From positions 1 to 64,000 of the forward strand of contig CADBYS010000010.1 in assembly GCA_902798965.1 (NCBI GenBank): a DNA stretch of 64,000 bases. Direction: 5' to 3'. Both the position numbers and the translations under genes were made by a program. This document shows positions 5,432-61,850 of this stretch, in pieces. The notes under the pieces were generated by a model. The model saw only the letters and a program-made list of their open reading frames with translations. It was not told the origin of the DNA and ran no database searches. The stretch comes from an uncultured Bacteroidales bacterium. Lineage in GTDB: Bacteria > Bacteroidota > Bacteroidia > Bacteroidales > Paludibacteraceae. Every line of letters begins with the position of its first letter. The first letter of the stretch is position 1.

Positions 5432-6799
5432 ATGAAAGTACGGTTTGTGACCTTAGGCTGTAAGCTGAATTTCGCTGAGTCCAGTGCGTTGGGTAAAGCC
5501 TTGCATGAAGCAGGCTATACCCGCGCAGTGGACGGCGAACAGGCAGATATATGCGTGCTGAACACCTGCACGGTGACCGACACGGCTGACCATAAGTGCC
5601 GGCAAGCCTTAGCCCGACTCAGGCGCGAGAATCCCAAGGCACTGATCATCGCCACAGGCTGCTATGCGCAGCTGGCGGCGGAGAACAGAAGTCAGATGTC
5701 AGATGTCAGATGTCAGAAGGGGTGGGAACAGGCGGATTATATCTTGGGCAACGACGAGAAGTTCCGCATCCCTGAGCTGATTCAGGCTATCAGCAGCCAA
5801 GAGGCAAGAGCTAAGAGCGAAGAGCCAAGAGTCAAGAGCCAAGAGCCGAAAGTACAGGCTACGCCGATACGCGAGGTGGAAGCGTTTCACGGGGCACTGT
5901 CGTTCTCATCTACGGACAGCGAAGCCGATGAGCCGCATACCACGATAGCCGACCGCACGCAGCGCACTCGTTGCTTCCTGAAGGTACAAGACGGATGTAA
6001 CTACTTCTGCACGTACTGCACTATCCCGTACGCACGCGGCAAGTCGCGTAACCCGCAGATCAGTCAGTTGGCGGAAGAGGCACAGCAGGCCATACGGCAA
6101 GGAGCGAAGGAGATCGTGCTGACCGGCGTGAACATTGCCGACTTCGGCCGTAGTACCGGCGAGACGTTCATCGATCTGCTGCGTGCCTTGGATGAGTTGC
6201 AAGGAGAGTACCGACTGCGTATAGGCAGTTGCGAACCGAACTTGCTGAGCACGGAGATTATCGATCTGGTAGCAGCAAGCCGGCATATAGCTCCGCACTT
6301 CCATATACCCCTGCAGTCGGGAAGCAACGAGGTGCTGAGGATAATGAAAAGGCATTACACCCGCGAACTGTTCGCCGAGCGGGTGGCATACATACGCCAG
6401 CGATTGCCGTACGCCTTTATAGGAGTGGACTGCATGGTGGGCGTGAGAGGCGAAACAGAAGAGTACTTTGATGATTATGTGCAGTTCGTAGAGCAGTTGC
6501 CCGTAAGTCAGCTGCACGTATTTACTTATTCGGAACGTGCGCGCACGCGTATGGTAGAGATGGATCTGTATGTCGTACCTGCCGCCGAGCGCAAACGTCG
6601 CAGCGATATTCTGCATCGCATATCCGAACAAAAAACGAAAGCGTTCTATGCCGCCAACCGCGGACAACAACTGACAGTCCTGTGGGAAAGCAGGAACGCC
6701 AAAGGGCAGATGGCAGGCTTCACGGAGAATTACCTGCGCCTGACTGCCCCCTATAACCCCGATAAAGTCAACACATTTGAAACTATACAATATATTTGA
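5432..6799 (+). CDS. mtaB: tRNA t6A37 methylthiotransferase MtaB
   Basis: 455 residues. Radical-SAM methylthiotransferase that converts t6A37 to ms2t6A37 in ANN-decoding tRNAs. The N-terminal MTTase domain has its cluster cysteines at C10 (TLGCKLN), C46 (NTCTV) and C77 (ATGCYAQ). The radical-SAM CxxxCxxC is at C189, C193 and C196 (DGCNYFCTYC). A TRAM-like C-terminal region follows. MtaB rather than MiaB or RimO is chosen from the GCKLN motif and overall similarity. Two stretches unlike the family are inserted between the two iron-sulfur domains, residues about 84-96 and 121-142. Both are encoded by tandem 7-bp DNA repeats (5691-5718 and 5799-5847) and keep the frame. ATG start 18 bp after the upstream stop. 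Confidence 0.93.
   Translation: MKVRFVTLGCKLNFAESSALGKALHEAGYTRAVDGEQADICVLNTCTVTDTADHKCRQALARLRRENPKALIIATGCYAQLAAENRSQMSDVRCQKGWEQADYILGNDEKFRIPELIQAISSQEARAKSEEPRVKSQEPKVQATPIREVEAFHGALSFSSTDSEADEPHTTIADRTQRTRCFLKVQDGCNYFCTYCTIPYARGKSRNPQISQLAEEAQQAIRQGAKEIVLTGVNIADFGRSTGETFIDLLRALDELQGEYRLRIGSCEPNLLSTEIIDLVAASRHIAPHFHIPLQSGSNEVLRIMKRHYTRELFAERVAYIRQRLPYAFIGVDCMVGVRGETEEYFDDYVQFVEQLPVSQLHVFTYSERARTRMVEMDLYVVPAAERKRRSDILHRISEQKTKAFYAANRGQQLTVLWESRNAKGQMAGFTENYLRLTAPYNPDKVNTFETIQYI
5691..5718 (+). repeat. Heptamer repeat GTCAGAT x4 inside mtaB
   Basis: Three exact GTCAGAT units and a final GTCAGAA, in frame within mtaB. Part of the 7-bp-period repeat set scattered through the window. Confidence 0.9.
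5799..5847 (+). repeat. Heptamer repeat AAGAGNN x7 inside mtaB
   Basis: Seven units (AAGAGGC, AAGAGCT, AAGAGCG, AAGAGCC, AAGAGTC, AAGAGCC, AAGAGCC). 49 nt, encoding a Glu/Lys/Ser-rich linker in MtaB. Confidence 0.92.
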
Positions 6800-6844
6800 A
6801 TTCTGAAAACGGAATACTCATATATCACCTATATACACTAATTT

Positions 6845-8680
6845 ATGCGTTACAACAAGCAAAAATTACAACAGATGACATTAGATGAACTTCGTGCAGT
6901 AGCAGCGGAGTTTCAATTGGCAGATGTAGAAGCAATGGATGCCAAGCAACTCGTATCGATGTTGGTGGATGTTCAGGCTGCTCAGGCTCTGAACGCTTAC
7001 CAGGCGCGCGAGGATGCCTTGCAACCCAAGCGTAGAACACGTATTACCGTGTCGGCTACTCCGGCAGCGCAACGTGTGGAAACCCGTCACATGAAAGGTG
7101 AGCGGGTGTTGGCCACTGTTGGCAATGAGTCGGATACCATCACGGAGATGAAGGAATATCAGTCGCAGCAACCTCTACCCGTAGGTGTGAGGAAAGCACA
7201 ACGTGCCATGGAGCAGTTTATGCAGCAGAACGAGGTGCTTAATCCCGCTTCGGAGATGTACGAGCCGATGCCTGTGGCAGAGCCGATGATAGCCGAACAG
7301 CCAGCAGAGCCTGCTCCGGTAGCAGAAGCCGCTCCGCTGCCCGAACCTGCGCCGGCTCCCGCGCCTAAGAAACGCGGCAGGCCGCGTAAGAACCCGCTGC
7401 CCGAACCGGTAGTAGATACGCAGCAGACCATCGAGATGCCTGCCGAGCAGCCGGCAATGGAGCAACCTTTAGATATGCCGCTGCCCGAACAGCCGATGGA
7501 GGAGGCGCAAGACGAAATGATACAGGAGTCGGCACAGCGCGTGACGTTCGATATAGATGATACGATAACGGCTATGGGCACCCTGGAGATTCTGCCCGAA
7601 GGATACGGATTCCTGCGTTCGGCCGATTACAACTATATCTCTTCGCCGGATGATATATACGTCACGCAACAGCAGATTCGTAAGTTCGCTCTCAAGCCCG
7701 GCGATACGGTGGAGTGCACCTTGCGTTCGCCGCGTGACAACGAGCGTTTCTTCCCGATGGCTAAGGTGATTCGCGTGAATGGCGTGTCACCCGAGAAAGC
7801 TGCCGAGCGTGTGGCGTTCGAGAACCTGACACCGCTGTTCCCGGATACGAAGTTCACCTTGTGCAAGGGCGATGGCCGCGACCCGCTCTCGTGCCGAATA
7901 ATTGACCTGTTTGCTCCTATCGGCAAAGGGCAGCGCGGACTGATCGTGGCGCAGCCCAAGACCGGTAAGACTATGCTGCTCAAGGATATTGCCAACGCTA
8001 TCAGCGAGAATCATCCGGAGGTATATATGATCGTTCTGCTGATCGATGAACGTCCGGAGGAGGTAACTGATATGATTCGTTCGGTGAAGGCGGAAGTAAT
8101 AGCCTCCACGTTCGACGAGCCGGCCGAGAACCACGTGCGCGTGGCGAACATCGTGCACGAGAAAGCCAAACGTCTGGTAGAGTGCGGACATGATGTAGTG
8201 ATCCTGTTGGATTCGATCACGCGTCTGGCACGTGCATATAACACCGTGGCTCCTGCCAGCGGCAAGGTGCTGTCGGGTGGTGTGGAAGCTCAAGCATTGC
8301 ATCGCCCCAAGCGCTTCTTCGGTGCAGCACGAAACATAGAGTTCGGCGGTTCGCTGACTATCATCGCCACAGCCCTGACGGAAACAGGCTCGAAGATGGA
8401 CGATCTGATCTTCGAGGAGTTCAAGGGAACCGGTAATATGGAGTTGCAGCTGGATCGTAAGCTGTCGAACAAACGTATCTTCCCCGCTGTGGATATACCT
8501 GCCTCCTCGACGCGTCGCGACGATCTGCTCTTGCCGGCTGATGTGCTCAGTCGTATGTGGATCATCCGCAAGCAACTGTCGGAGATGAACGGCGTAGAAG
8601 CCATGGAGAAACTCCGTGCGTTCATGGAGCGTACACGTGATAACGACGAGTTCCTGCTTGCAGTGAACGGAATGAGATAG
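6845..8680 (+). CDS. rho: Transcription termination factor Rho (long-insert form)
   Basis: 611 residues against about 420 in E. coli Rho. Hexameric RNA-dependent ATPase that ends transcription at unstructured RNA. Residues 1-45 form the Rho N-terminal helical domain ([16 protein letters not shown]). Residues about 60-235 are a low-complexity Pro/Glu/Ala/Gln insert with an AT-hook-like KKRGRPRK at 175-182; such inserts are seen in Rho of several phyla, including this one. The cold-shock-type RNA-binding domain starts near 245 ([14 protein letters not shown]). The P-loop is AQPKTGKT at 369-376, followed by Walker B ([16 protein letters not shown]) and the SGGV/Q-loop region. ATG start; no clear promoter was seen in the 45-bp gap. 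Confidence 0.96.
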
Positions 8681-8687
8681 TCAAAAG

Positions 8688-9143
8688 ATGATAGGACGGA
8701 TAGTGATATTGAACGGTGCGAACCTGAACTGCTTGGGCAGGCGGGAACCGGCGATCTATGGACGCAAATCCATGGAGCAGGTGATGCTTGAGCTGCAGCA
8801 GGCGTATCCCGATATTCACTTCACGTACTATCAGTCCAACCACGAGGGCGATCTTATCGACCGGCTGCAAGAGCCTTTAGTCGAAAGTCAAAAGTCGAAA
8901 GTCGAAAGCATCAGCGGCATTGTGCTGAACGCCGGCGGTTATACGCATACCAGCGTAGCGCTGCGCGATGCAGTGGCACTTTGTCCGGTGCCCGTAGTGG
9001 AGGTACATATATCCGACATCAGCAAGCGCGAACCGTTCCGGCGGGTAAGTCTGCTCACCGATGTTTGCGCACACACTATCACCGGTCATGGCACCGACGG
9101 ATACAGAGAAGCCGTGCAATGGCTGCTCGATAATACCAAATGA
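8688..9143 (+). CDS. aroQ: 3-dehydroquinate dehydratase, type II
   Basis: 151 residues. Dodecameric dehydratase of the shikimate pathway (3-dehydroquinate to 3-dehydroshikimate). The N-terminal ILNGANLNCLGRREPAIYG holds the catalytic Arg19 and Tyr24. NHEGDLIDRL, NAGGYTHTSVALRDA, EVHISDISKREPFR and ITGHGTDGY are the other conserved blocks. Residues about 64-75 (LVESQKSKVESI) replace the short family loop and come from four 7-bp repeats at 8880-8907. The gene starts 7 bp after rho and its stop overlaps the next start (ATGA at 9140-9143), suggesting translational coupling. Confidence 0.95.
   Translation: MIGRIVILNGANLNCLGRREPAIYGRKSMEQVMLELQQAYPDIHFTYYQSNHEGDLIDRLQEPLVESQKSKVESISGIVLNAGGYTHTSVALRDAVALCPVPVVEVHISDISKREPFRRVSLLTDVCAHTITGHGTDGYREAVQWLLDNTK
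8880..8907 (+). repeat. Heptamer repeat GTC(G/A)AAA x4 inside aroQ
   Basis: GTCGAAA, GTCAAAA, GTCGAAA, GTCGAAA within the aroQ coding frame. The same unit occurs, on the other strand, in the DUF2723 gene and prmA. Confidence 0.92.
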
Positions 9144-12504: not shown

Positions 12505-13986
12505 ATGCGGGCAGGTGAAAAGCGGAAAGCGGAAAGTGGAAAGAGGTGTCGCCTTGCAGCGTGCATCTTTATGCTGAGCGCTGTGCTGTGTCTGCTCGGC
12601 TCGTGCAAGCAGGAACAGGTTAGTTACGACCCCTCGTACAAACTTGCGCTTTCTACCGATTCGTTGGCATTTGATACCGTGTTCACGGGCTTCGGCACGA
12701 GCACGCGACGCGTCATTCTGCATAATCCCAACCCCAATGCACTGGTCATTGAGAGTATATCTTTCCTTAAAGGTACGCACTTCCGTGTGAATGTGGATGG
12801 CGAGGCGGATGCTACGCGATGGAAGAATCTTACTATTCGCGGCGGCGACAGTGCCTACATCTTCGTTCGCGCGTATATCGATCCGCTTGGGCAAGACAAC
12901 CCGCTCATTGTCACCGACGAACTGCTCTTCCATTACAACGGCAACGAGACGTCGCTGCGGCTCTCGGCTATCGGGCAGGACGTAACGCTGCTCGGTAAAA
13001 ACGATTACTCAACCGCTCAGCACCTGACTGCCAAGAAACCCTATCTGATTACCGATACGCTTATCTTCCGCGGCGATCTGACCATCGATGCCGGCGCAAC
13101 CTTGTATATGCGCAACAATGCAGCCATCTTTGCCGTAGGCAACGTTACGGCGGGAGGTACGTTGGCTGAGCCTATCATCATCCGTGGTTACCGAACGGAT
13201 AATCTCTTTGATTCCGTGCCGTACGCCTTTGCCTCCGGGCAGTGGAATGGGGTCTATCTATTGCATACCGGCAACGAGCCGCGTAGTTATACGCTGCGGT
13301 ACGTGGATATACTCAGCGGCAATGTGGGGCTGTTCTGTCAGTCGGAGAACACCGAAGCGCCGCTGCCGATGCTTACGATGGAAGGTTGCCGCATACACAA
13401 CATGTCCGTCTATGGCCTGGTTTGCCTGAATGTGGATGCCACGGTTGTCAATTCCGAGATTTCGAACTGCGCCTCGTACGGCGTGTATCTGCAAGGCGGC
13501 ACGCATACCTTGGTGCACAACACCATAGCCGCATATTTCGGCTACCCCTACACGAATCTGAATATCCACAGCGCGCAGCGCGAGGATGTAGCCGCCGTGT
13601 TCATCAACAACCTGAGCAAGCAGATGGCACCGATGAGCACGTACCTGTACAACAATATCATCACCGGTGCGCGCAAGAACTGCCTGGTGCTGGCGGCGCC
13701 GCTGCCGGATTACTACATCGGCGAGTTCAAGGGCAACTACCTGCGTGCCGACTCAATCAACCTGCCGCAATTCACTGCCAACACCTACGCTACGGATAGC
13801 GATACTGTGTTTGTCAACAACCGGTATCTGTACAAGGAGTATCGTTATTACGATTATCATCTCGACTCCATTTCGCCCGCCATAGGTATAGGCGATAAGC
13901 AGGTAGCCGCGCAATTCCCGCTGGATAGGGAAGGGGAGAGCCGCACTGAACGCGTGGATGCAGGATGCTATCAGTACAAGCCGTAG
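12505..13986 (+). CDS. Lipoprotein with right-handed beta-helix
   Basis: 493 residues. Lipoprotein signal with the lipobox around LLGSC (Cys near residue 33). The hydrophobic segment is preceded by an unusually long basic n-region (EKRKAESGKR) encoded by four 7-bp repeats at 12519-12546. A beta-sandwich region follows (LALSTDSLAFDTVFTGFGTSTRRV...), typical of Bacteroidota surface lipoproteins, then a parallel beta-helix (about 190-420) with repeated short strands and Asn/Gly turns. Such proteins often bind or cleave polysaccharide, but no catalytic residues can be assigned. It starts 1 bp after the PorT-like stop. Confidence 0.75.
   Translation: MRAGEKRKAESGKRCRLAACIFMLSAVLCLLGSCKQEQVSYDPSYKLALSTDSLAFDTVFTGFGTSTRRVILHNPNPNALVIESISFLKGTHFRVNVDGEADATRWKNLTIRGGDSAYIFVRAYIDPLGQDNPLIVTDELLFHYNGNETSLRLSAIGQDVTLLGKNDYSTAQHLTAKKPYLITDTLIFRGDLTIDAGATLYMRNNAAIFAVGNVTAGGTLAEPIIIRGYRTDNLFDSVPYAFASGQWNGVYLLHTGNEPRSYTLRYVDILSGNVGLFCQSENTEAPLPMLTMEGCRIHNMSVYGLVCLNVDATVVNSEISNCASYGVYLQGGTHTLVHNTIAAYFGYPYTNLNIHSAQREDVAAVFINNLSKQMAPMSTYLYNNIITGARKNCLVLAAPLPDYYIGEFKGNYLRADSINLPQFTANTYATDSDTVFVNNRYLYKEYRYYDYHLDSISPAIGIGDKQVAAQFPLDREGESRTERVDAGCYQYKP
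12519..12546 (+). repeat. Heptamer repeat AAAGNGG x4 in lipoprotein N-terminus
   Basis: AAAGCGG, AAAGCGG, AAAGTGG, AAAGAGG. Encodes the basic residues before the lipoprotein signal helix. Confidence 0.88.
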
Positions 13987-18347: not shown

Positions 18348-18390
18348 GTCTTTTGTCTTTGAGTGACGCAGTCACGGTCTTTCGACTAAA
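18348..18390. repeat. Heptamer plus hairpin module (GTCTTTT ... GTGACGCAGTCAC ... GGTCTTT)
   Basis: Two GTCTTT(T/G) units, then AG, then a small palindrome GTGAC-GCA-GTCAC (18363-18375), then GGTCTTTCGAC. It overlaps the stop region of the M23 lipoprotein gene. Related modules with different palindromes lie at 20419-20450 and 20482-20515. Confidence 0.7.
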
Positions 18391-19634: not shown

Positions 19635-19651
19635 CCTTTCACTAATTAGGC

Positions 19652-19679
19652 TTTCGACTTTCGACTATCGACTATCGAC
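19652..19679. repeat. Heptamer repeat T(T/A)TCGAC x4 forming the GT2 C-terminus
   Basis: TTTCGAC x2 and TATCGAC x2. On the - strand these encode the last residues (KKVDSR) and the stop codon of the glycosyltransferase gene. Confidence 0.88.
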
Positions 19680-20411
19680 TTTCTTCGGGTACTTCCTCGT
19701 CCACGACGATACCTTCAGCCGCACAACGCCCAGTAGCGCCTCGGAGAATATACCTCCCGACATCTTACTCGTGCCCAACACGCGGTTCACGAAGATGATT
19801 GGCACTTCTTTCACCGTAAATCCGCACATGATGGCGGTAAACTTCATCTCAATCTGGAAAGCGTAACCCTTGAAGCGGATCTTGTCCAGCTCAATCGTTT
19901 CCAGTACCTCGCGTTTGTAGCCCACGAAGCCGGCAGTCGTGTCATGCACATCGATGCCGAGCACCGTGCGCACGTATTTCGATGCAAAGTACGACATCAG
20001 CACTCTGCCCATAGGCCAGTTCACCACATTCACGCCAGTCACATAGCGACTGCCGATAGCCACGTCCGCACCCTCGTTTGCCAACGCCTCGTACAAGCGC
20101 ATCAGGTCGTTCGGGTTGTGCGAGAAGTCTGCATCCATCTCGAAGATATAGTCGTACTTATGTTCTATCGCCCACTTGAAACCAGCGATGTAGGCAGTAC
20201 CCAGACCGAGTTTGCCTTGGCGCTCAATGATATGCAGTCGAGCTTCTTTTTGCTCGTCTATCATCCGCTTGACGATGGCGGCAGTGCCGTCCGGCGAACC
20301 GTCGTCAATCACCAGCACATGAAAATCCACAGGTAACCCGAACACCGCATTGATGATCGCTTCGATGTTCTCCTTCTCGTTGTACGTAGGTATTATTACT
20401 AATCGTGACAT
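19665..20411 (-). CDS. GT2 polyprenol-phosphate mannosyltransferase-like
   Basis: 248 residues. Glycosyltransferase family 2 of the dolichol/polyprenol-phosphate mannose synthase type: IPTYNEKENI, VIDDGSPDGTA (nucleotide-sugar site), EMDADFSHNPNDL (DxD-like) and IGSRYVTG. No C-terminal membrane domain, as in the soluble Ppm1-like form. It would transfer mannose (or a related hexose) from GDP-sugar to a lipid carrier, a donor that DUF2723/PMT-type enzymes such as the one at 53.8 kb could use; that link is inference. The extreme C-terminus derives from heptamer repeat DNA. Confidence 0.85.
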   Translation of the reverse strand: MSRLVIIPTYNEKENIEAIINAVFGLPVDFHVLVIDDGSPDGTAAIVKRMIDEQKEARLHIIERQGKLGLGTAYIAGFKWAIEHKYDYIFEMDADFSHNPNDLMRLYEALANEGADVAIGSRYVTGVNVVNWPMGRVLMSYFASKYVRTVLGIDVHDTTAGFVGYKREVLETIELDKIRFKGYAFQIEMKFTAIMCGFTVKEVPIIFVNRVLGTSKMSGGIFSEALLGVVRLKVSSWTRKYPKKVDSR

Positions 20412-20418: not shown

Positions 20419-20515
20419 ATCTTTGAGCAGCCAAGCTTGGCTGCGGTCTTTTGTCTTTTGTCTTTTGTCTTTTATCTTTTATCTTTGAGCTCCGCGGTCT
20501 ATTGTAGCTCAAATG
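20419..20515. repeat. Palindrome and heptamer cluster between GT2 and MBL genes
   Basis: ATCTTTGAG, then an 18-bp perfect palindrome GCAGCCAAGCTTGGCTGC (20427-20444), then GGTCTTTT. GTCTTTT x4 and ATCTTT(T/G) x2 follow (20446-20487). Then TTTGAGCT ... AGCTCAAA, an 8-bp inverted repeat overlapping the MBL stop. It may fold as a terminator for the - strand, but its modular look suggests a mobile or expanding repeat. Confidence 0.8.
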
Positions 20516-40953: not shown

Positions 40954-41442
40954 TTAATCGTTGATATAGAATGTTAACGTTCCGTGTAACTGAGTGCCTT
41001 TGACAATAATCTCTTTGCGGTTCTCTCGCTGACGGATTTCAAAATCAATCTTTTGCAAAGTCTCCACGCACTTATTCAGGTACGGATCTTCTTGGTAAGT
41101 CTGCGTTTCTTTGACACCGCCATTACCTAAGATGAGCACCTTACTGCTGATGCACAGACAGTACAAACGCAACCTTGATGACTCCAAATATGCGGGCAAA
41201 GCCTTTACTCTATCAGATGGCCTACCTTCGTAGCGGAAATACCGATCTTCGGCTCCCATCCGTTTGATGGTTTCCAGACGTCCCATGATAGTACCTAAGT
41301 CTTCACCATATTCCTCGTTATTCATATAGGTTAACAGGAACTTCTCAAACTCAGAATACTCCTCGCCGATGAATTGCGGAGAATAGATGCTAACGAACTC
41401 TCCTGACTCTAGTAATTTCAGTAGTAAATCTCTGCGCTGCAT
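40954..41442 (-). CDS. Putative toxin of a HigBA-like pair
   Basis: 162 residues from the ATG at 41442 (MQRRDLLLKLLESGEF); 41469 would place the start inside the promoter region. Helical N-terminal half, then RLRLYCLCISSKVLILGNGGVKETQTYQEDPYL, which resembles the beta-sheet core of RelE/HigB toxins (strand, hairpin, 'GGxKxTxTyqxdP') but within a longer protein. The downstream XRE gene supports a toxin-antitoxin reading. A different regulator pair is possible. Confidence 0.62.
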   Translation of the reverse strand: MQRRDLLLKLLESGEFVSIYSPQFIGEEYSEFEKFLLTYMNNEEYGEDLGTIMGRLETIKRMGAEDRYFRYEGRPSDRVKALPAYLESSRLRLYCLCISSKVLILGNGGVKETQTYQEDPYLNKCVETLQKIDFEIRQRENRKEIIVKGTQLHGTLTFYIND

Positions 41443-41643: not shown

Positions 41644-42369
41644 TCAGGCATCGAAGATGGCGGAACCGATGCGAAGCATTGTGCTGCCGTTGGCAAGGGC
41701 AAGCGGGTAATCATCGGACATACCCATAGATAATTGACAATAGGACGATTGACAATTGACAGATTGCTGATTGCTGACTGCTGATTGCTGAATGAGCCAC
41801 AGATATTGCTCGTGCAGGGTGCGGAAGCAACGGGTGATCTCCTCTTGGTCGTCGGTGTTCGTAGCCATACCCATAATGCCGCAGATACGGATGTTGGGAT
41901 ATTCCTGTACGGATTTGACGGATTGCACGGATGACTGTTCAATAGTAGTGTCAGATGTGTCACAACTATTCGCAATCAGGTCATGGAACTCGGGGATGGT
42001 GAGGCCGGATTTGGTTTGCTCGGCAGCTACATGAAGCTCGAGGAGGATATCCTGAACGATGCCCTGCTTGGCGGCTTCGGCATTGATGGCTTGTAGCAGG
42101 TGCTCGGAGTCAACCGACTGAATAAGGTATGGGCGCAAGCGCAGCAAGTCGCGGACTTTGTTCGTTTGCAGGTGACCGATGAAGTGCCAGCGGATATCGC
42201 CGGGCAAGGCGGCTTGCTTGAGCTTAAGCTCTTGCACGCGGCTTTCGCCGAAGTCGCGACAACCGGCAGCGTACGCCTCGGCTATCTGCTCCACGGAGTG
42301 GTACTTGCTCACTGCCACAAGGGTTACATCAGTGGGCAACGATTCCCTTATTTCACGCCAACGGGTCAT
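41644..42369 (-). CDS. yggS: YggS/PLPBP-family PLP-binding protein
   Basis: 241 residues. Alanine-racemase-like fold without racemase activity, involved in vitamin B6 homeostasis. The PLP lysine is in VAVSKYHS, followed by FGESRVQEL and WHFIGHLQTNK. The C-terminal block GMSDDYPLALANGSTMLRIGSAIF is typical. Between LHEQYLWL and GMSDDYP the family has only a few residues; here about 20 Gln/Ser-rich residues are encoded by heptamer repeat DNA at 41732-41790, in frame. Confidence 0.93.
   Translation of the reverse strand: MTRWREIRESLPTDVTLVAVSKYHSVEQIAEAYAAGCRDFGESRVQELKLKQAALPGDIRWHFIGHLQTNKVRDLLRLRPYLIQSVDSEHLLQAINAEAAKQGIVQDILLELHVAAEQTKSGLTIPEFHDLIANSCDTSDTTIEQSSVQSVKSVQEYPNIRICGIMGMATNTDDQEEITRCFRTLHEQYLWLIQQSAVSNQQSVNCQSSYCQLSMGMSDDYPLALANGSTMLRIGSAIFDA
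41732..41790. repeat. Heptamer repeats ATTGACA / ATTGCTG inside yggS
   Basis: ATTGACA-type units followed by ATTGCTG, ATTGCTG, ACTGCTG, ATTGCTG (41763-41790). Confidence 0.9.
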
Positions 42370-53810: not shown

Positions 53811-56800
53811 TTACTGCGCAGCGGAGTCGTAGATGTGATAGTAGTCCTCGACTATCTCGTGCATGCCGTTGCGGTCACATTGCTGGAGAATATATCCGAG
53901 CACTGCGTCGTAATGATCGAGCGTACTCTTCATGGCTTTGCGCTGATCTTTGTCGAGCGACTGCCCCCAAACGATGTACTCGGAACAGGTCTGTGCCACA
54001 TCGCGCAAGATAGGCTCGGCTTTCTCCTTGTCGCCCATGCGCACATACAGCAACGCCATGGTGGCAGCAGTGTAGTCGTAGTTGACGTTCTTGCCGGGCA
54101 ACTCCTCAAACGCCTTGTCGAGCACAGCCGTAGCACGCTCGTAGTCGTGGCGGTTAACCAGCACCTCAGCCAGTTGAGCGAACATCATGCGGTGCGTGCG
54201 GCACATGCGCAGGGTGTTTTCATCCAGATAGATGCCATCCGCCTTACAGTTGCCGTACTCGAACTTGTTCATCATGTTGTCGTACATCTGCTCCACAGCT
54301 ACGCGCGGCTGCCCGTTCGGCGAGCGGTTGGGCGTGATATGATAAGCCATACCTGTGCATTCGAAGTACGGCTCCAAGCCCATGTAGTAATCAGGACCTA
54401 CGCTTACGGCGAAGTACATCGGGCGCTGCCACTTGTTCTGGCTGAGCATCTCCATGATCATCATCTCCGAACGTGTGAAGCGACGCGCTTTCTTCAGATT
54501 GATATGACTGCTATCCGGAGCCAAGACGTACAGTTGATCGCTGGGGATATAGTTGTCGCCCTCGCGGTTCTTGGTCTTCGGGTCGTCGGAGCGGAGGAAC
54601 TGGAAGGCTTTGCTGACCTCCAGCGGCTGGCCAAGTTTGTTGTCCGTCCATACCACTTCGTTCGTTCCCGGCATGAAATCCTTGTACTCCCAACTGATGG
54701 GCAGTGCCGGCGAATCGTAGTACGGGCGTTTCATCTGCGATATATACCAGTCAGTCTGCAGGTACGACAGGTTGCACACACGCAGGTCAGTACCTACGCC
54801 CTCAACCTCCTGATTGTACCACAAGGGGAAGGTATCGTTATCGCCGTTGGAGAAGATGATTCCTTCTTTCTCGCACGACTTGAGGTAGTTGGCACCGAAG
54901 TCGCGGCAGACGTATCGTTGCGAGCGGTCGTGATCATCCCAGTTCTGCGAAGCCATCTGTGCAGGCACGAGCAGAGCCACTAAGGTGATAACCACAGCAG
55001 CCACACTCTTCAGGCCTTCGCTCTTTATGGCTTGCATAACGCTATCTGCCAAAGCCAGCACACCGAAGCCGATCCATATACAGAAGGCGTAGAACGAGCC
55101 GGCGTAGGCGTAGTCACGTTCACGCGGCTGGAAGGGTGTCTGGTTCAAGTAAACGACAATAGCCAAGCCGGTAAGCAGGAACAGGAGCATTGTGATGGTG
55201 AACGAACGCAAGCCCACAAAATCTACAGCTTTCGACTTTCGACTTTCGACTTTCGACTGTATTTTCGTTTTCGATGCCTGCCAAACCATACCGATGATAC
55301 CCAACAGCAGCGGCAACATGTAATAGACGTTGTGTCCCTTGTTCTCCTTGAGTTCGGTAGGCAGCTGGTCTTGATCGCCGAGCAAGGCGTTATCGATCAC
55401 ACGGAAACCGGTGATCCAGTTGCCCTTGTGGAGCTCGCCGTAGCTTTGCAGGTCATTCTGACGACCGGAGAAGTTCCACATGAAGTAACGCCAGTACATG
55501 AAGTGTACCTGGTAGCGGAAGAAGAATCGCAGATTCTCACCAAAGGTGGGAACGTTCTCCGTCTTCTTTTGTCCGCAATAGTCGTACTTCACGCGTTTGC
55601 CCTTGATGTCTGCCCATTGCTTGTAGGCGCTGACGTGCGAGCCTTGAGCCGACCACATACGCGGGAAGAGCATCATGAACTCATCCATGTAGATGTAGGT
55701 CGTCTTGTAGCCGGTGATTACATAGTGGTCTTTCTCGCCTTCTACACGCGGAGCGGGGGCGTATTGTGCATGTCCCTCTTTCTCCATCGGGATGCACATG
55801 TTGCCGCGGATCTCCAGCTTGACCGGCGCGTTATAGGTCTGACCGTACAGCAGCGGCGTATCGCCATACTGCTCGCGGTTGAGGTAGTACTTGAGCGAGA
55901 ATACATTGTCCGGGCTGTTCTGATCCATCGGGGTGTCGGCATTGGAGCGGATGACCAATGCGGCATACGAGCCGTAACCGATGATGATCACGGCAATAGC
56001 CAGTGCGGTGGTGTTGAGTAGACGCGGGGTTATCAGTTCGCGCTTAACGAACAGGAACGCAGCCAATGCGGCTACAATCAGTATACCTATCAACGCACTT
56101 TCCCTGAGGAACGGAGTACCCGCCAAGGTGAATGCGCACAGGAATGCAATGACCTGCCGTGCTGTGGCACCTGGCTTTTGACTTTCGACTTTCGACTTTT
56201 GACTACTTTCTACCACAGCCCATACCAAGGCGGCTGCCAGCAGTACCAGATACACTGCCAGACCCGTGTTGAACGGCAGACCCATTCCGTTAACGAACGC
56301 CAACTCAAACCAGCCGGCGATAGTCGGCACACCGGGGATGATACCATACAGCACGAACGCCAGTATAGCTACCGAGGTCAGGAACGCCAGGCATACTCCG
56401 CCCCACGAGAATTGGTAGCGGCGGAAGTAATAAACGAGCACAATAGCCGGGATAGTCAGCAAGTTCAGCAAGTGCACACCGATGGACAAACCCATCAGGT
56501 ACGCAATGAGAATCAGCCACTTATCCGAGCCGTGCTCGTCGGCATGCTCGTCCCACTTGAGTATGAGCCAGAACACAACGGCGGTGAACAACGACGATGA
56601 CGCATATACTTCACCTTCCACTGCGCTGAACCAGAACGTATCGCTGAACGTGTATGCCAACGCACCTACAGCGCCTGCACCCAGCAGGCTGATGATACGT
56701 GCTACACTGTCAGGGGCAACAAGCTTGCGCGCCAGGGCAGTGATCGTCCAGAATAGGAACAGAATAGTGAAGGCGGATGCCAAAGCCGACAAGGCATTGA

Positions 56801-57035
56801 CGCACATGGCTACATGCGACGCGTCGCTCGCAAACAGCGAGAAGAAGTGACCCATCAGCATGAAGAAAGGCGCTCCGGGCGGATGGCCTACATCCAGCTT
56901 GTCGGCCGATGAGATGAACTCACCGCAGTCCCAAAACGACGCCGTGGGTTCCATTGTAAGCAGATACGTGGCGGCTGCTACGGCAAACACCAACCAGCCG
57001 ACAACCACGTTCCACAACTTGAATTGTTTTTCCAT
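53811..57035 (-). CDS. DUF2723 protein O-mannosyltransferase-like membrane enzyme
   Basis: 1074 residues from the ATG at 57035; a GTG at 57062 adds nine residues very close to the predicted transcript start. The N-terminal DUF2723 domain has PTASFWDCGEFI (catalytic-type acidic loop), DVGHPPGAPFF and about 12 helices, then a large C-terminal globular part with TPR-like ends. DUF2723 includes eukaryotic TMEM260, a protein O-mannosyltransferase, so a role in O-glycosylation of exported proteins is likely. Two in-frame heptamer tracts lie in loops between helices (55230-55257 and 56176-56203). Confidence 0.85.
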   Translation of the reverse strand: MEKQFKLWNVVVGWLVFAVAAATYLLTMEPTASFWDCGEFISSADKLDVGHPPGAPFFMLMGHFFSLFASDASHVAMCVNALSALASAFTILFLFWTITALARKLVAPDSVARIISLLGAGAVGALAYTFSDTFWFSAVEGEVYASSSLFTAVVFWLILKWDEHADEHGSDKWLILIAYLMGLSIGVHLLNLLTIPAIVLVYYFRRYQFSWGGVCLAFLTSVAILAFVLYGIIPGVPTIAGWFELAFVNGMGLPFNTGLAVYLVLLAAALVWAVVESSQKSKVESQKPGATARQVIAFLCAFTLAGTPFLRESALIGILIVAALAAFLFVKRELITPRLLNTTALAIAVIIIGYGSYAALVIRSNADTPMDQNSPDNVFSLKYYLNREQYGDTPLLYGQTYNAPVKLEIRGNMCIPMEKEGHAQYAPAPRVEGEKDHYVITGYKTTYIYMDEFMMLFPRMWSAQGSHVSAYKQWADIKGKRVKYDYCGQKKTENVPTFGENLRFFFRYQVHFMYWRYFMWNFSGRQNDLQSYGELHKGNWITGFRVIDNALLGDQDQLPTELKENKGHNVYYMLPLLLGIIGMVWQASKTKIQSKVESRKSKAVDFVGLRSFTITMLLFLLTGLAIVVYLNQTPFQPRERDYAYAGSFYAFCIWIGFGVLALADSVMQAIKSEGLKSVAAVVITLVALLVPAQMASQNWDDHDRSQRYVCRDFGANYLKSCEKEGIIFSNGDNDTFPLWYNQEVEGVGTDLRVCNLSYLQTDWYISQMKRPYYDSPALPISWEYKDFMPGTNEVVWTDNKLGQPLEVSKAFQFLRSDDPKTKNREGDNYIPSDQLYVLAPDSSHINLKKARRFTRSEMMIMEMLSQNKWQRPMYFAVSVGPDYYMGLEPYFECTGMAYHITPNRSPNGQPRVAVEQMYDNMMNKFEYGNCKADGIYLDENTLRMCRTHRMMFAQLAEVLVNRHDYERATAVLDKAFEELPGKNVNYDYTAATMALLYVRMGDKEKAEPILRDVAQTCSEYIVWGQSLDKDQRKAMKSTLDHYDAVLGYILQQCDRNGMHEIVEDYYHIYDSAAQ
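55230..55257. repeat. Heptamer repeat TTTCGAC x4 in DUF2723 gene
   Basis: Four exact units. Encodes an SKVESRKSK-like loop. Confidence 0.93.
56176..56203. repeat. Heptamer repeat TTT(T/C)GAC x4 in DUF2723 gene
   Basis: TTTTGAC, TTTCGAC, TTTCGAC, TTTTGAC. Encodes SSQKSKVESQKP in a loop between helices. Confidence 0.93.
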
Positions 57036-57073
57036 ATTTTTGCTAAAATTCTTTTTTTGCACAAATCAGCCTG

Positions 57074-57192: not shown

Positions 57193-57537
57193 ATGAAACA
57201 TCATCTGTTCCTTTCCGTGTTTTGTGCCTTGCTGCTGTGCGGTTGCCGTTCGTACAGCGAAAAGGAAGGTACCCTCGTGTGCGGTGTTCCCGTCAAGGGT
57301 TCGCCGTGGCAGTTTGCCGCAGCCTTGGCGGACGACAGCAAGCATGCTTTTACGCCGGAGAGCGTTACGGTTTTCGAGAAAAAGGCGTATATCCGGGGAT
57401 ATGTCAATACCAACCTGTCGGAGCATCCCTACCATGAGTTTCCGTACGAGAACGGCTTGGTACCCGGGGAGATCTGGTGCGAACTGGAGGACGGCAAGGT
57501 GGTCAAGGCGCGCTTGTATCAATCAGTGTTTGATTAG
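57193..57537 (+). CDS. Small lipoprotein of unknown function
   Basis: 114 residues. Lipoprotein signal MKHHLFLSVFCALLLCGC (Cys18), then a single small domain (VCGVPVKGSPWQFAAAL, YIRGYVNTNLSEHPYHEFPYENGLVPGEIWCELEDGKVV) of alternating strands. No family recognised. Own promoter. Its 3' end overlaps prmA tail-to-tail by 15 bp. Confidence 0.75.
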   Translation: MKHHLFLSVFCALLLCGCRSYSEKEGTLVCGVPVKGSPWQFAAALADDSKHAFTPESVTVFEKKAYIRGYVNTNLSEHPYHEFPYENGLVPGEIWCELEDGKVVKARLYQSVFD

Positions 57538-58323
57538 CATCAACATACGCCATTCGCCGTTCGCGCGCGTACAATAATATTGTAAACCTTGACGCTCAGC
57601 TTCTGCCACCAGCGCGGGTATATCCTGCTCGTAGAACCCCGAGATCCACAATTCGCCTCCCTGCTCCATGTTTGCCGCATAATCGTGCATCTGCTCCAGG
57701 AGGATGTTTCGGTGGATATTGGCCATGATCAGGCTGTTGCTGCCCTGCGGAACGTTGGATGCATGCAGCACTTTGATGTTCACCTTGTTTGCTTCGGCAT
57801 TTTCGATAGCGTTCCTGACGCTATTCTCATCTATATCCACCGCCACGACGCGTTCGGCTCCTAACTTTGCCGCCATGATTGCCAGCACACCTGTGCCGGT
57901 GCCCATATCCAGTACTGCTTTCGGCTTTTGGCTTTCGACTTTCGACTTTTGACTTTCGACTAATTCCTCAATCATCATCGATGTTGTCTCGTGATGCCCC
58001 GCGCCAAACGCGCAATGCGGCGTGATGCGTACGCCCATGGGCAACTCTTCGATCGGATGTTCGGCTTCCCACACGGCGTTCCAGTTCTCGTCCTTGCACG
58101 GCTCGAAAGCCTCCAGGCGGGCTGATGCAGAACGGATTACCTCCTGCAATTCGTCCGCAAAGTCTGCTTGGCTGTCTACCAGGTCGGCGGGGATATAGGC
58201 ATGCAACAGGTTTTCCTCCTGCTCAAACGAATCAAAACCCATATCCGCCAATTGTTGCGTCAGGATATCTACCTGCCACTCGGCAAGCTCATCGCAACGG
58301 ATTATAGCTATGTTGTATTTCAT
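57523..58323 (-). CDS. prmA: Ribosomal protein L11 methyltransferase
   Basis: 266 residues. N-terminal substrate-recognition domain, then the SAM site LDMGTGTGVLAIMAAKLGAERVVAVDID and the PrmA block ITPHCAFGAGHHETTSMMIEEL; ANIHRNILLEQM stands in place of the usual ANILxxxL. Just before the SAM site the loop VESQKSKVESQKPKA is encoded by five heptamers (57926-57960). Methylates L11; not essential in E. coli. Confidence 0.93.
   Translation of the reverse strand: MKYNIAIIRCDELAEWQVDILTQQLADMGFDSFEQEENLLHAYIPADLVDSQADFADELQEVIRSASARLEAFEPCKDENWNAVWEAEHPIEELPMGVRITPHCAFGAGHHETTSMMIEELVESQKSKVESQKPKAVLDMGTGTGVLAIMAAKLGAERVVAVDIDENSVRNAIENAEANKVNIKVLHASNVPQGSNSLIMANIHRNILLEQMHDYAANMEQGGELWISGFYEQDIPALVAEAERQGLQYYCTRANGEWRMLMLIKH
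57926..57960. repeat. Heptamer repeat TTT(T/C)G(A/G)C x5 in prmA
   Basis: TTTTGGC, TTTCGAC, TTTCGAC, TTTTGAC, TTTCGAC, immediately upstream (in protein order) of the SAM motif. Confidence 0.93.
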
Positions 58324-58335: not shown

Positions 58336-60090
58336 TTACTTACCTTCTGATTTTTTGTTTTGCAAACAGATGTCGCACATGCCGCAAAGTGGCGCCTCCA
58401 GTTCGCCGAAGTACCCGAGCAGCAGTTGCGAGCGGCAATAATGGTTGTTTTCGGCATATTCGGTCATAGCCTTGAGGTTGCGCTCGAAGACCTGTTTGCG
58501 TTCGCTATACACACGCGGAGCGAGCTGCACCTCGGCCTGGCGGTTAACGGGGAAATGTACGATGCTGACGCGTTGAGCGGGTATGTACTTGATGATCCGC
58601 TGTTTGGAGAGTGCAATGAGCGAACTGTTGACCGCAAACTCTGTGCTGCCCAAATCTTCCGCCAAGCGCGGCAGATGAATGAACTGTGCATCGGTAAAGA
58701 TACCTGTATAGCGGCGCATCAGCGCACTGAGCAGTCGTTCCTGATAGGGCGATTCGTCCAAATGGTACATCTGTTCCTTATCTATCAGTATGCGCACGCG
58801 CGGCTGCAGATTCTGCTCGTCGGTAAACGAGATATACCCTGCTTGGGTAAGTATCTGCAGGGCAGCGTAGGTTGTCAGGAAGGATAGGTGCATATCCGTG
58901 CAGAACTGCTCCACATCCAGTGCGAACGTGGCGTCTCTGCCCGAACCCAGACCTATTGTCAGGTAGTCACACAACAGCTGATACACACGTTCTATCTCTT
59001 CTGCCGGCGGGTAGTTGTTGCTGATGCGTTGCTTGACGATCACGCTATCCTTCGGTGCATGGAGTAGCACGCACCAGGCTGTTTGGCCGTCGCGCCCCGC
59101 TCGTCCGGCTTCCTGGAAGTACGCCTCGATGCTATCCGGCAGGTCATAATGGATCACGAGCCGCACATCGGGTTTGTCGATGCCCATGCCGAAAGCGTTC
59201 GTGCACACGATCACCCGTGTCTTACCGTCCTTCCACGCCTGCTGCTTGGCGGAGCGCTCGGATGCCGGCAAACCGGCATGGTAGAAATTGACGATTGGAT
59301 AATTGACGATTGACGATTGATTGCCGATTTTCTCATTTAGCCATTCTGCCAGTTCCTTGGTGCGCTTGCGGTTGCGCACATACACGATAGCAGTGCCCGG
59401 CACGCGCTGCAGGATATGCAGCAGTTGGCCTTGTTTGTCTTCGGTGTGACGCACTACATAATGCAGATTCTCTCGTGCGAAGCTGGTGCGGAACACGTTC
59501 GGCTGCTTGAAGCCGAGTTGGCGCTGTATATCATCGACCACCTCGGGGGTGGCAGTAGCCGTCAGTGCCAGCACAGGCACGTCAAGCACATTACGTATGT
59601 CGGCTATGCGCAGGTACGACGGACGAAAATCGTAACCCCACTGCGATATGCAGTGCGCCTCATCCACGGCAATCAGTTTTACGGGCAGTTGCACCAGCCG
59701 CTTGAGGAACGTCTCGCTTTCCAGACGTTCGGGCGAGACGTAGAGGAAGCGGTATGCTCCATACAGGCAGTTGTCGAACACCACGCGCTGCTCCTCGTGC
59801 GTCATGCCGGTGTAGATGGCTGCGGCAAGTATATTGCGCTTGCGCAGGTTGGCTACCTGATCCTTCATCAGGGCGATGAGCGGTGTGACCACCAGGCATA
59901 AGCCTTCGCCATCGGCATCGTTGTCGGCCATCACCATCGTCGGCACTTGGAAGCACAGCGACTTGCCGCCGCCCGTAGGCAGCAAGGCGAGCGTATCGTT
60001 GCCCGCCAGCACGGAATCGATGATCTCCGCCTGCATGGGGCGGAACGCATCGTAGCCGAAGTAGGTATGTAAGGCTTCCTGTGCAGTCAT
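58336..60090 (-). CDS. recQ: ATP-dependent DNA helicase RecQ
   Basis: 584 residues. Motif I LPTGGGKSLCFQVP, DEAH box VDEAHCISQWGYDFRPSY, motifs III-VI (LALTATAT, FGMGIDKPDVRLVIHYDLP, QEAGRAGRDG), zinc-binding and winged-helix RQC region ending CGMCDIC. No HRDC domain. 3'-5' helicase of recombination and fork repair. The insert NQSSIVNYPIVN between the helicase lobes is encoded by ATTGACG-type repeats at 59286-59322. Confidence 0.94.
   Translation of the reverse strand: MTAQEALHTYFGYDAFRPMQAEIIDSVLAGNDTLALLPTGGGKSLCFQVPTMVMADNDADGEGLCLVVTPLIALMKDQVANLRKRNILAAAIYTGMTHEEQRVVFDNCLYGAYRFLYVSPERLESETFLKRLVQLPVKLIAVDEAHCISQWGYDFRPSYLRIADIRNVLDVPVLALTATATPEVVDDIQRQLGFKQPNVFRTSFARENLHYVVRHTEDKQGQLLHILQRVPGTAIVYVRNRKRTKELAEWLNEKIGNQSSIVNYPIVNFYHAGLPASERSAKQQAWKDGKTRVIVCTNAFGMGIDKPDVRLVIHYDLPDSIEAYFQEAGRAGRDGQTAWCVLLHAPKDSVIVKQRISNNYPPAEEIERVYQLLCDYLTIGLGSGRDATFALDVEQFCTDMHLSFLTTYAALQILTQAGYISFTDEQNLQPRVRILIDKEQMYHLDESPYQERLLSALMRRYTGIFTDAQFIHLPRLAEDLGSTEFAVNSSLIALSKQRIIKYIPAQRVSIVHFPVNRQAEVQLAPRVYSERKQVFERNLKAMTEYAENNHYCRSQLLLGYFGELEAPLCGMCDICLQNKKSEGK
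59286..59322. repeat. ATTGACG-type repeat inside recQ
   Basis: ATTGACG, ATTGGATA, ATTGACG, ATTGACG, ATTG units in frame. The same unit fills the gaps around rpoN. Confidence 0.85.
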
Positions 60091-60161: not shown

Positions 60162-60959
60162 TTACCAACGGTGCGGGTGGAGTAATCCTCCCACAAGGGA
60201 TATAAGCGCGTAATAAGGATAAACGATTGCGAGCAGCAGTACCTCGTACCACGCAAAGCCCTTGCCGCGAATGAGCGAGCACTCGAAGGGCAGATACAGC
60301 AGAACGAGTGGCGGACATAGCAGTTGCAGCACCATGGCTGCGGCTACCGTCGCACCGTATAGACATATGTCTTTATCCGTGTAGTGTGGGGCTTTGCCTG
60401 CCCAGCGCATCCGCTGCCTGAGCAAGGTGCGCAAGGTAGGCTGTGCGGTGACCACCGCCGTGAATCTCTCGGGGTTCCCGCAAACATCGTGCAGTGGGGT
60501 GTCTTCACCACTCACCGTTATTCGTTTTCCTGTTCGCTTGCAGTATTCCAGCAGGAACATATCGTCGCCGCTTGGCAGTTCGGGGTGCAAGTGCGGTTCG
60601 GCTTCCAGCCACACGCTGCGCCGCACCAGCAGGTTCGCGCCGCTGCATAGAATAGCTCTGCCTAGCTCTGCCGTCCGGATAGTAAGTGCCTGCAAGGCGG
60701 TATATTCAATCACCTGCAGGCGCTCAATCAGGGTGTCGTGCGCGGCGTGCATCCGCAGCGGTAGAATCATCAGGTCGGCATCGCCGAATAGCTGCAATGC
60801 CTCCGCGTCGCTCGCCTCAGGCAACAGCACATCATCGTCGTGCAACCACAGCACATCCGCTTCCGAGGCGTGTATCAAACGATGCAAGGCGTATTTCTTA
60901 CCTTTCCCCTCGTCGTTCACTCCGCGAATGGGCGTAATATGTGCCAGGGTGAGAGCCAT
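60162..60959 (-). CDS. GT2 glycosyltransferase, apparently N-terminally shortened
   Basis: 265 residues. GT2-type core: GKGKKYALHRLIHASEADVLWLHDDDVLLPE (acidic DDD metal site), SGANLLVRRSVW, PSGDDMFLLEYCKRTG and RQRMRWAGK (QxxRW-type), plus two C-terminal hydrophobic helices. Normally ~60-70 residues with the first nucleotide-binding strand and a V-x-D-D-x-S motif precede this; only ~20 are present. The ATG lies in a heptamer array (60958-60992). Either a real truncated enzyme or a decayed gene. Confidence 0.7.
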   Translation of the reverse strand: MALTLAHITPIRGVNDEGKGKKYALHRLIHASEADVLWLHDDDVLLPEASDAEALQLFGDADLMILPLRMHAAHDTLIERLQVIEYTALQALTIRTAELGRAILCSGANLLVRRSVWLEAEPHLHPELPSGDDMFLLEYCKRTGKRITVSGEDTPLHDVCGNPERFTAVVTAQPTLRTLLRQRMRWAGKAPHYTDKDICLYGATVAAAMVLQLLCPPLVLLYLPFECSLIRGKGFAWYEVLLLAIVYPYYALISLVGGLLHPHRW

Positions 60960-60992
60960 CAGCGATCAGTTATCAGCTATCAGCAATCAGTC
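60958..60992. repeat. Heptamer repeat ATCAGNN x5 joining two genes
   Basis: ATCAGCG, ATCAGTT, ATCAGCT, ATCAGCA, ATCAGTC. On the - strand it makes the stop of the PqqD-like gene and the start codon of the GT2 gene. Confidence 0.92.
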
Positions 60993-61255
60993 AGCAGGTT
61001 CGCTGATTTCCATGACTCGATAGTGGCTATCGCATCTTTCTTGGCCTGTTCGGGCGATACCTCGTATTCTGCCAGCAGCAGCTCAGTCAGTGTGTCGGCA
61101 TCAAAACTATCTTTGTCTGCCACGTTGCGCCACAGGTAGGCAGCACTCTCGTTGAGCGTGATCATCGCGTTGAAGTTCACCAAATCCACGCTTTCTGCTA
61201 TCAGCAGGTACTCATTGCCCAGCGGACGTAAGGCAAATCCCTTAACTACTTTCAT
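60980..61255 (-). CDS. PqqD-like protein (RRE fold)
   Basis: 91 residues. PqqD-type winged-helix fold: VVKGFALRPLGNEYLLIAE, ITLNESAAYLWRNV, LTELLLAEYEVSPEQAKKDAIATIESWKSANLL. PqqD domains bind leader peptides of ribosomally made, modified peptides. The last residues and stop come from a heptamer array. Likely works with the next two genes. Confidence 0.85.
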   Translation of the reverse strand: MKVVKGFALRPLGNEYLLIAESVDLVNFNAMITLNESAAYLWRNVADKDSFDADTLTELLLAEYEVSPEQAKKDAIATIESWKSANLLTDC

Positions 61256-61259: not shown

Positions 61260-61320
61260 TTGACGATTTACTAATTTACGATTTACGATTGATTGACGAT
61301 TATAATTGATTGACGATTGA
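61260..61320. repeat. ATTGACG/ATTTACG repeat gap
   Basis: ATTGACG, ATTTACTA, ATTTACG, ATTTACG, ATTG and ATTGACG units fill the gap between the S26-like and PqqD-like genes. Confidence 0.8.
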
Positions 61321-61740
61321 TTAGATGCATACGTGCCGGTAGATCTTGAGCCACAACCTGCGCGTGCGCAACATATGTCGCCACAGCCATGCGCGTGTCA
61401 GGGGTTTGCTGCGGCCTTTGGGCGAATGGATGGCTACCACCTTGGCGAGCACCTTATCGGCCGTGCACTGTTCGCAGCCTTGCAGATTGCCGTCGCCCAT
61501 CAGGGTCACCTGCTCTCCGTCCAAGCGGTAGATACGGTGTAACACGTAGTGCTGCGGCTGCACTTCGGCGAGCACAATATCGCCTACTGCCAATGCGCGC
61601 GGCAGTACCAGAGTTACATTATCTACACCGCCCTCGATGTACGGCCGCATGCTCACACCTGTGGGCGTGAATACGACCTGCTTACCCTCCTTCACCAGAC
61701 GGCTGATCTCAGGTATAAATATCTCGTTAGGCAGTTGCAT
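61321..61740 (-). CDS. S24/S26-type peptidase
   Basis: 139 residues, no membrane helix. TPTGVSMRPYI carries Ser30 in a G-x-SM motif, YVLHRIYR His68 and LMGDGNLQ Asp83. This is the Ser-His-Asp arrangement of SipW/Sec11-like S26 peptidases, not the Ser-Lys type. CEQC at 89-92 is notable. In this context (PqqD and kinase neighbours) it may process a peptide or protein substrate rather than act as a general signal peptidase. Confidence 0.8.
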   Translation of the reverse strand: MQLPNEIFIPEISRLVKEGKQVVFTPTGVSMRPYIEGGVDNVTLVLPRALAVGDIVLAEVQPQHYVLHRIYRLDGEQVTLMGDGNLQGCEQCTADKVLAKVVAIHSPKGRSKPLTRAWLWRHMLRTRRLWLKIYRHVCI

Positions 61741-61754
61741 CTAACCAATGAATT

Positions 61755-61850
61755 TTGGAATAAGGAGTAAAGATCGCTTCGCTAAAGGAGTAAAGACAAG
61801 TTACATCAGTCGAATACATTTAAGTCTTTATTCCTTACTCCTTACTCCAT
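61755..61850. repeat. AAGGAGT-type heptamers with hairpin core
   Basis: GGAATAAGGAGTAAAGA, a short TCGCTTCGCTA core, AAGGAGTAAAGAC, and further on the opposite-strand ATTCCTT, ACTCCTT, ACTCC (61830-61848). Confidence 0.75.

Follow-up and report, generated by a model that had tools for sequence, protein, structure and literature searches.

The DNA analysed here comprises positions 1 to 64,000 of contig CADBYS010000010.1 (assembly GCA_902798965.1) from an uncultured Bacteroidales bacterium, and this whole stretch of 64,000 nucleotides (nt) is called the window. It holds many tandem arrays of 7-bp units, five of which are copies of a single 30-nt element of four heptads, the GTCRAAA element (R, purine). 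They lie in or at the end of protein genes, including those for PrmA, a type II dehydroquinase (AroQ) and a TMEM260-like protein (these three identified by Pfam):

8879..8908, forward strand: 30-nt four-heptad element (AGTCGAAAGTCAAAAGTCGAAAGTCGAAAG) inside the type II dehydroquinase (AroQ) gene (8688-9143), coding for residues 64-74
19651..19680, reverse strand: 30-nt element with TATCGAC units, spanning the 3' end of a glycosyltransferase gene (19665-20411), 16 nt upstream of an M23 peptidase open reading frame (ORF; 18372-19634)
55229..55258, reverse strand: 30-nt element inside the TMEM260-like gene (53811-57062)
56175..56204, reverse strand: second 30-nt element in the same TMEM260-like gene
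57932..57961, reverse strand: 30-nt element inside prmA (57523-58323), with two further degenerate heptads from 57918

The prmA copy codes for VESQKSKVESQKPK, sited between the GAGHHETT and VLDMGTGTG stretches of the protein. Scanning the window against Rfam yielded no match. Below, G000 is the genome holding the window, G007, G035, G174 and similar labels are other genomes of the same genus, and L numbers are sampled loci.

With Tandem Repeats Finder at a score of 30, a lax threshold, period 7 came first in the window (26 of 83 rows), yet not alone, as periods 9 and 11 gave 16 and 14 rows. A stricter test, which counted clusters with at least 19 matches at shift p within 21 nt, found 10 clusters at 7 in the window and 0-2 at each other shift to 40 (2 each at 11, 14, 15 and 22). 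In 1,216,269 nt sampled from G000 there were 95 clusters at 7, compared with 16 at 11, 13 at 22, 12 at 16 and 24, 7 at 8 and at most 12 at the other non-multiples of 7 up to 24; the counts at 14 (45) and at 21 (18) represent harmonics of 7. The relatives gave the same picture, with 46 clusters at 7 and 12 each at 11 and 22 in G007 (796,863 nt), and 57 against at most 8 at other periods in G035 (392,308 nt). The sampling was not random, as the first 20 stretches came mainly from contigs with GTCTTTT matches and the G035 stretches were picked around element matches. A set of 78 loci fetched from relatives as gene orthologues (330,204 nt) held 18 clusters at 7, 10 at 14 and 7 at 11. Shuffles that kept local dinucleotide content, one for each of the three genome samples, yielded no cluster in total. 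The 7-bp excess claimed in a preliminary description of this DNA is thus borne out, and period 7 leads in the window, the sampled genome and the relatives alike.

That description had also spoken of a shared period without a shared sequence. There are indeed many unit sequences (38 to 43 distinct heptamers per genome in all), but they are not independent, and the GTCRAAA family dominates. Arrays within one substitution of GTCGAAA or GTCAAAA made up 101/167 in G000, 34/89 in G007 and 44/112 in G035, and the distinct units are nearer to one another than composition-matched random heptamers (in G000, nearest neighbour 1.12 versus 1.38 ± 0.09).

When arrays were grouped by unit, the GTCRAAA (CTTTYGA) arrays recurred at 30 nt. 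The element consists of four unspaced heptads and two bases, AGTCRAAAGTCRAAAGTCRAAAGTCRAAAG, and the next base is usually C. Array lengths were measured by tolerant extension, with arrays below 21 nt dropped. Exactly 30 nt was found in G000 for 24/38 in-gene and 11/19 intergenic arrays, and in G035 for 17/26 and 11/13. As this length holds between genes too, the reading frame is not what sets it, and we rejected a by-product of the reading frame as the source of the fixed length. Unit counts within the all-GAC class point the same way: G035 has 13 sites with two units, 5 with three, 28 with four and none above four, while G000 has 12, 4 and 20, then 2 and 1 above. Two- and three-unit sites are rarer than four-unit sites, which is the reverse of a slippage series. 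We therefore consider it quite unlikely that polymerase slippage alone made every array, GTCRAAA included, from chance seeds through a polymerase that favours 7 nt. Such slippage would account for the dominance of period 7 over many unit sequences and for the 21- and 63-nt differences between close relatives described below. However, it predicts a smooth fall from two units, whereas the GTCRAAA family peaks at four units and keeps fixed ends, both within genes and between them, and other families in the same genomes show no four-unit peak; the length histogram already disfavours it.

The edges of the element are defined. Sequence logos were built from single-register copies only (30/41 in G000, 7/14 in G007 and 38/42 in G035, leaving out 11, 7 and 4 multi-register copies). 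In G000 and G035, the 30 core positions mostly carry 1.4-1.9 bits, with about 0.8-1.6 at the four purine/purine positions. The flanks are weak, apart from a G just before the start of the pyrimidine strand (0.9-1.4 bits) and two more positions in G000 (0.5 and 0.7). Few copies are decayed: those with 0, 1, 2 and 3 mismatches number 41, 15, 10 and 2 in G000 and 25, 13, 4 and 2 in G035, and a reversed-pattern control gave none below four mismatches in G000 and one each at two and three in G007 and G035. A hairpin or RNA element was considered and rejected. Only the all-G form folds well (-7 kcal/mol, beating 200/200 shuffles; other purine-strand forms -1.6 to -3.6, five strands), G-to-A changes break its pairs, and covariation among 114 copies was absent between heptads 2 and 3 and slight between heptads 1 and 4 (CC 0.70 versus 0.65 expected, TT 0.08 versus 0.03), hence not consistent.

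Genes were called with a simple custom caller, by which 89-91% of the DNA is coding. Among copies with up to two mismatches in G000, G007 and G035, 86/132 lie in genes, with the purine strand sense in 80 and antisense in 6; orientation is mixed among the intergenic copies. The in-gene sense copies are spread over the three frames (17, 23 and 40). Genes are not preferred by the family, but its tolerance there is far above that of other heptamer families, considering that 80/125 GTCRAAA arrays are in genes versus 65/243 arrays of other heptamers. This tolerance arises because four sense heptads are stop-free in all frames and give rotations of SKVESRK/VESQKSK; as 7 is not a multiple of 3, each frame yields a rotation of one hydrophilic heptapeptide. 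Peptides such as VESQKSK occur in PrmA, AroQ and, twice, in the TMEM260-like protein, and in alignments with relatives they fall in variable stretches. Net protein length differed by 0 or 1 residue in 11/20 comparisons and by 3 to 13 in the other 9. In an AlphaFold2 model of the dehydroquinase (mean predicted local distance difference test score 89, 16 sequences), residues 64-74 are predicted to lie in the last part of the short helix 62-66 and in the loop leading into strand 75-81. Other heptamer families place peptides in genes less often, examples being SAVSNQQ-type peptides in the Ala_racemase_N protein of the window and in the PrmA of G001. Outside genes, local GC skew assigned 20 copies to the leading and 14 to the lagging strand (22 to 14 in per-genome tallies before rounding; 46 copies), and we rejected a replication polarity like that of KOPS (FtsK-orienting polar sequences), as no strong strand polarity is seen.

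The element is dispersed through the genus. A 31-mer search with up to two mismatches found it in 106 of 178 species and not in the other 72, some of whose genomes are incomplete. G000 had 150 matches, G174 116, G098 106 and G081 97 (a five-unit array can count twice), and 9/178 genomes had more than 50. The reversed 31-mer gave 0 in G000 and low counts elsewhere, except in G087 (15), G138 (11) and G086, G131 and G173 (6 each). Among the matches listed, the element was also present in Paludibacteraceae and rumen Bacteroidales assemblies. Assembly artefact or contamination might be suspected given that G000 is an incomplete assembly of 51 contigs, but we give this a negligible probability: the element is found in differently named assemblies (e.g., L106, L114, L141 and L149) and in 106/178 species, which refutes an artefact for the element as a class. 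A wider pattern that allowed GTC units matched at least 111 stretches, including ones from cyanobacteria, Flavobacterium and Fibrobacter. The many four-unit GTCAAAA arrays in cyanobacteria were not taken as evidence of a fixed length there, as the scan pattern itself required 29 nt.

We next consider the history of individual sites. Comparison of orthologues among three species gave 46 cases, of which 4 were reciprocal, leaving 42 distinct comparisons; poor alignments with large gaps were not used as cases. Five of the 42 have the element on both sides (window position 55229 with G007; L013:13818, L304:7324, L304:12628 and L401:10894 with G035), where 26-30 of the 30 bases agree and the flanks are 75-84% identical. 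If the element had changed like its flanks, the differences seen would have a probability of 0.0003 to 0.08 at each site; this contrast is overstated, as the copies had been chosen for matching well in one of the two genomes. Most of the remaining sites are empty or differ in the relative, and where they are empty the side with the element is typically 21-42 nt longer. The TMEM260-like gene was aligned with 7 relatives (four of eleven, G151, G186, G044 and G174, were left out because their loci are on the other strand). The copy at 55229 has a same-site counterpart in G007 (29/30), and none of the other six aligned relatives has it; in G174, this gene does carry a copy. At 56175, G007 is 21 nt shorter, and G075 carries a different insert of similar size. 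Replacement at the same length, considered for L401:10894 and window position 55229, was rejected, as decay of an old copy explains these sites equally well; equal-length cases such as L401:10894 versus G007 may be old copies worn down.

For array length between close relatives, most of the pairs listed were array-to-array matches and not orthologues, so the comparison was limited to G007 and G174, which are 95.3% identical across 5.4 kb of one locus and 89-98% identical in the L345 region. One in-gene array is exactly 21 nt shorter in G174 and another is 63 nt longer, so existing arrays change by frame-keeping multiples of heptads. The preliminary description had proposed a process acting on length and not one mobile repeat. 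The former fits this heptad-step change and the other families, which are open-ended at 18-116 nt, but does not fit the 30-nt length of GTCRAAA; the latter fails, considering that GTCRAAA, the commonest family, is a dispersed sequence element of typically exactly 30 nt.

We lean, with modest confidence, towards the GTCRAAA element being a very small dispersed DNA element that spread as a unit, with later slippage of its heptads, the remaining arrays being of slippage type. A more specific version is tentative and falls somewhat short of an even chance, namely that this 30-bp four-heptad element multiplies as a unit through the genus without a conserved hairpin, mainly inside protein genes as a ready-made loop. 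The element would arrive at the DNA level, in either orientation, as one unit at scattered sites. In genes, copies would survive mainly with the purine strand sense, which is stop-free and gives a charged, loop-tolerant peptide, and resident copies would gain or lose whole heptads, in genes by multiples of 21 nt. Copies would be made from other copies, sites would be founded by insertion and not by sequence drift, and the count of four would be set by a factor that needs contact with four contiguous heptads.

Several observations weigh against spread as a unit. Searches of the genus for IS200-like (PF01797) and Omega_Repress proteins identified no transposase or other factor as the spreading agent, and neither the orthologue nor the close-pair comparisons gave a clean empty site for a 30-nt unit at >90% identity or an evident target-site duplication. 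G007 is looser, with 30-31 nt in 11/19 in-gene arrays, 30 nt in 1/5 intergenic arrays, arrays up to 72 nt and mismatch classes 0/1/2/3 of 15/8/1/7, i.e., seven copies with three mismatches. The copy at L345:17892 differs at 3/30 bases between G007 and G174, where the adjoining bases are nearly identical. The protein comparisons with a difference of 0-1 residue include PrmA and AroQ against G007, so that some copies may be old and worn down in the relative, or sequence may have been replaced without insertion. Finally, selecting single-register copies for the logos favours sharp edges, although such copies are the majority in G000 and G035.

The same evidence bears on two other accounts. The first, which we regard as rather unlikely, is a binding site under selection: by analogy, a protein involved in chromosome upkeep would need four contiguous 7-bp subsites at about 100 places, and sites would be kept wherever they arose, genes included. 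Such selection would fit the count of exactly four heptads, the purine/purine freedom at one fixed heptad position amid strong constancy elsewhere, the scarcity of decayed copies in G000 and G035, and the better conservation of the element than of its flanks at the five shared sites. It is at odds with the 37/42 distinct comparisons that are not shared, the 72 species lacking the element and the little strand polarity between genes. The second, molecular drive through DNA uptake, would have the 30-mer favoured in transformation so that it accumulates as uptake sequences do. Dispersal in and between genes, both orientations in intergenic DNA and a well-kept sequence are compatible with it. However, known uptake sequences are much shorter and more frequent than this 30-mer, and we consider uptake highly improbable. 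To return to spread as a unit, an IS200-like or RAYT (REP-associated tyrosine transposase) driver was examined and rejected, as PF01797 does not track element copy number. Of the nine genomes with more than 50 element matches, five had any PF01797 hit at E <= 0.001, three had one over the cut-off and two (G098 and G073) reached at least 30 bits, compared with 68 and 48 of all 178 genomes for the first two thresholds; the strongest matches (G139 and G104) were in genomes with 4 and 9 element matches. The Omega_Repress family was found in 0/178 genomes, but also in 0/14 controls.

Among known systems, the nearest mechanistic precedent for the number four is the ribbon-helix-helix Omega/ParB protein of plasmid pSM19035, an analogy by which we claim no membership. 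Omega dimers bind 7 bp apiece, and full activity takes no fewer than four contiguous heptads, the minimum for full stimulation of ParA (PMC9499535), a requirement that would favour the binding-site account; its unit is 5'-WATCACW-3', and the six plasmid sites, which overlap promoters, hold 7-10 units each. The GTCRAAA element shares the unspaced 7-bp units and the four contiguous heptads but differs in unit sequence and in count per site. RAYT transposases have been proposed to spread REPINs, hairpin-forming pairs of repetitive extragenic palindromic (REP) sequences (PMC3116915). Unlike REP/REPIN, the GTCRAAA element is a direct repeat in which only TCGA is self-complementary, lies largely in genes and has no RAYT association. 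Rickettsia palindromic elements, of ~150 bp, are described in PMC10969869 as sitting in-frame in unrelated protein genes, where they add a peptide; ours is likewise in-frame in protein genes but is a 30-nt direct repeat. It also resembles the small dispersed repeats (SDR) of Nostoc in being very small and dispersed, with unrelated flanks. According to Elhai in 2008, these are reportedly 21-27 nt long, thought to be mobile and often near heptamers, and some families are said to have a conserved hairpin with compensatory changes. Unlike SDR, the GTCRAAA element is 30 nt long, made of heptads, found in Bacteroidales and mostly in genes, and has no covariation-supported hairpin.

This genus bears on the question of why bacteria have so many 7-bp repeats. 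Its genomes hold an open-ended class and a four-unit class side by side, and the two can be told apart, making four-heptad recognition testable. Small repeats here also supply loops to housekeeping enzymes: PrmA and AroQ receive theirs from the element, a RecQ-type helicase and a radical SAM enzyme from other heptamers. If our reading is true, the element would be among the smallest self-spreading or factor-spread elements that write protein sequence.

The other heptamer arrays (e.g., GTCTTTT, TTTCACC, GAGAGTT and ACGGGTT) are conventional slippage-type repeats, mostly intergenic and of a known kind. Heptanucleotide repeats, including short tandemly repeated repetitive (STRR) sequences, were reportedly treated by Mazel in 1990 and Mrazek in 2007. 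Heptanucleotide simple sequence repeats (SSR) and STRR combine a 7-bp period with many units and variable copy number and are mostly intergenic, and a 2007 proposal by Mrazek, as retold, explains the 7-nt preference by polymerase contacts (PMC4679880 and PMC4692102). Our other families are alike in period, unit variety, open-ended length and intergenic bias; GTCRAAA shares the tandem 7-bp units and differs in its family-wide 30-nt peak (single arrays vary) and its in-gene majority. The preliminary description knew of no heptamer repeats described in Bacteroidales. That holds only in part, as TAACTGA direct repeats have been described in five Bacteroidetes, including Paludibacter propionicigenes (MacGregor, 2015; PMC4679880). 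The TAACTGA repeats of Beggiatoaceae are likewise dispersed heptamers common to distant phyla but, by the same source, lie mostly no more than several nucleotides upstream of start codons. Searches on heptanucleotide and heptamer repeats in open-licence papers, as far as their available text goes, gave no description of a fixed four-heptad element.

The window sites with arrays other than the 30-nt element are as follows:

5686..5717, forward strand: GTCAGAT heptamer array, 32 nt, inside a radical SAM / UPF0004 gene (5432-6799), presumably MiaB/MtaB-like
5798..5847, forward strand: AAGAGNC (AAGAGCC) heptamer array, 50 nt, in the same radical SAM gene (5432-6799)
12515..12543, forward strand: GTGGAAA/GCGGAAA heptamer array at the 5' end of ORF 12505-13986 (Beta_helix)
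20446..20486, reverse strand: GACAAAA (GTCTTTT) array, 41 nt, intergenic, one among many GTCTTTT arrays of G000
41762..41791, reverse strand: ATTGCTG array inside an Ala_racemase_N family gene (41644-42369), with the peptide around QQSAVSNQQSV
59302..59320, reverse strand: short ATTGACG array inside a RecQ-type helicase gene (58336-60090)
60958..60990, reverse strand: ATCAGNN array at the junction of genes 60162-60959 and 60980-61255
61828..61848, reverse strand: AAGGAGT array, 21 nt, intergenic, between 61321-61740 and 61866-62765

Some further repeats were seen in the relatives and in cyanobacteria. In L268-L287 of G035, a second dispersed motif, GTGCCCGGAGGCA, occurs 11 times in 0.39 Mb, several times beside the four-heptad element, and TAACCCG arrays are also plentiful. 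The G035 orthologue (in L283) of L304:13747 has (GGCGAAW)x4 where G000 has GTCGAAA x4, possibly a sister element with another unit and the same length. At cyanobacterial loci L059, L061, L069, L092, L096, L111 and L132, GTCAAAA arrays are preceded by a small palindrome such as CCGCAAGGCGGAA. On an Okeania contig (L104, 2775-3160), a tandem repeat of ~80-90 nt has copies with 4, 3, 4, 5 and 6 GTCAAAA heptads, a natural copy-number series.

Coding scores are low across positions 26000-41000 of the window, where short repeats with periods of 9, 11 and 22 abound, along with a few of period 7. The proteins there are Fn3-associated, HD-domain, BRO-N and AAA/AbiEii-like, with a ParE-like match below the curated cut-off, and the region looks like a mobile or defence island. 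It includes a tandem duplication of a 71-bp unit at 39119-39253 (1.9 copies, 100% match) and similar repeat blocks at 35937-36181 and 38525-38724.

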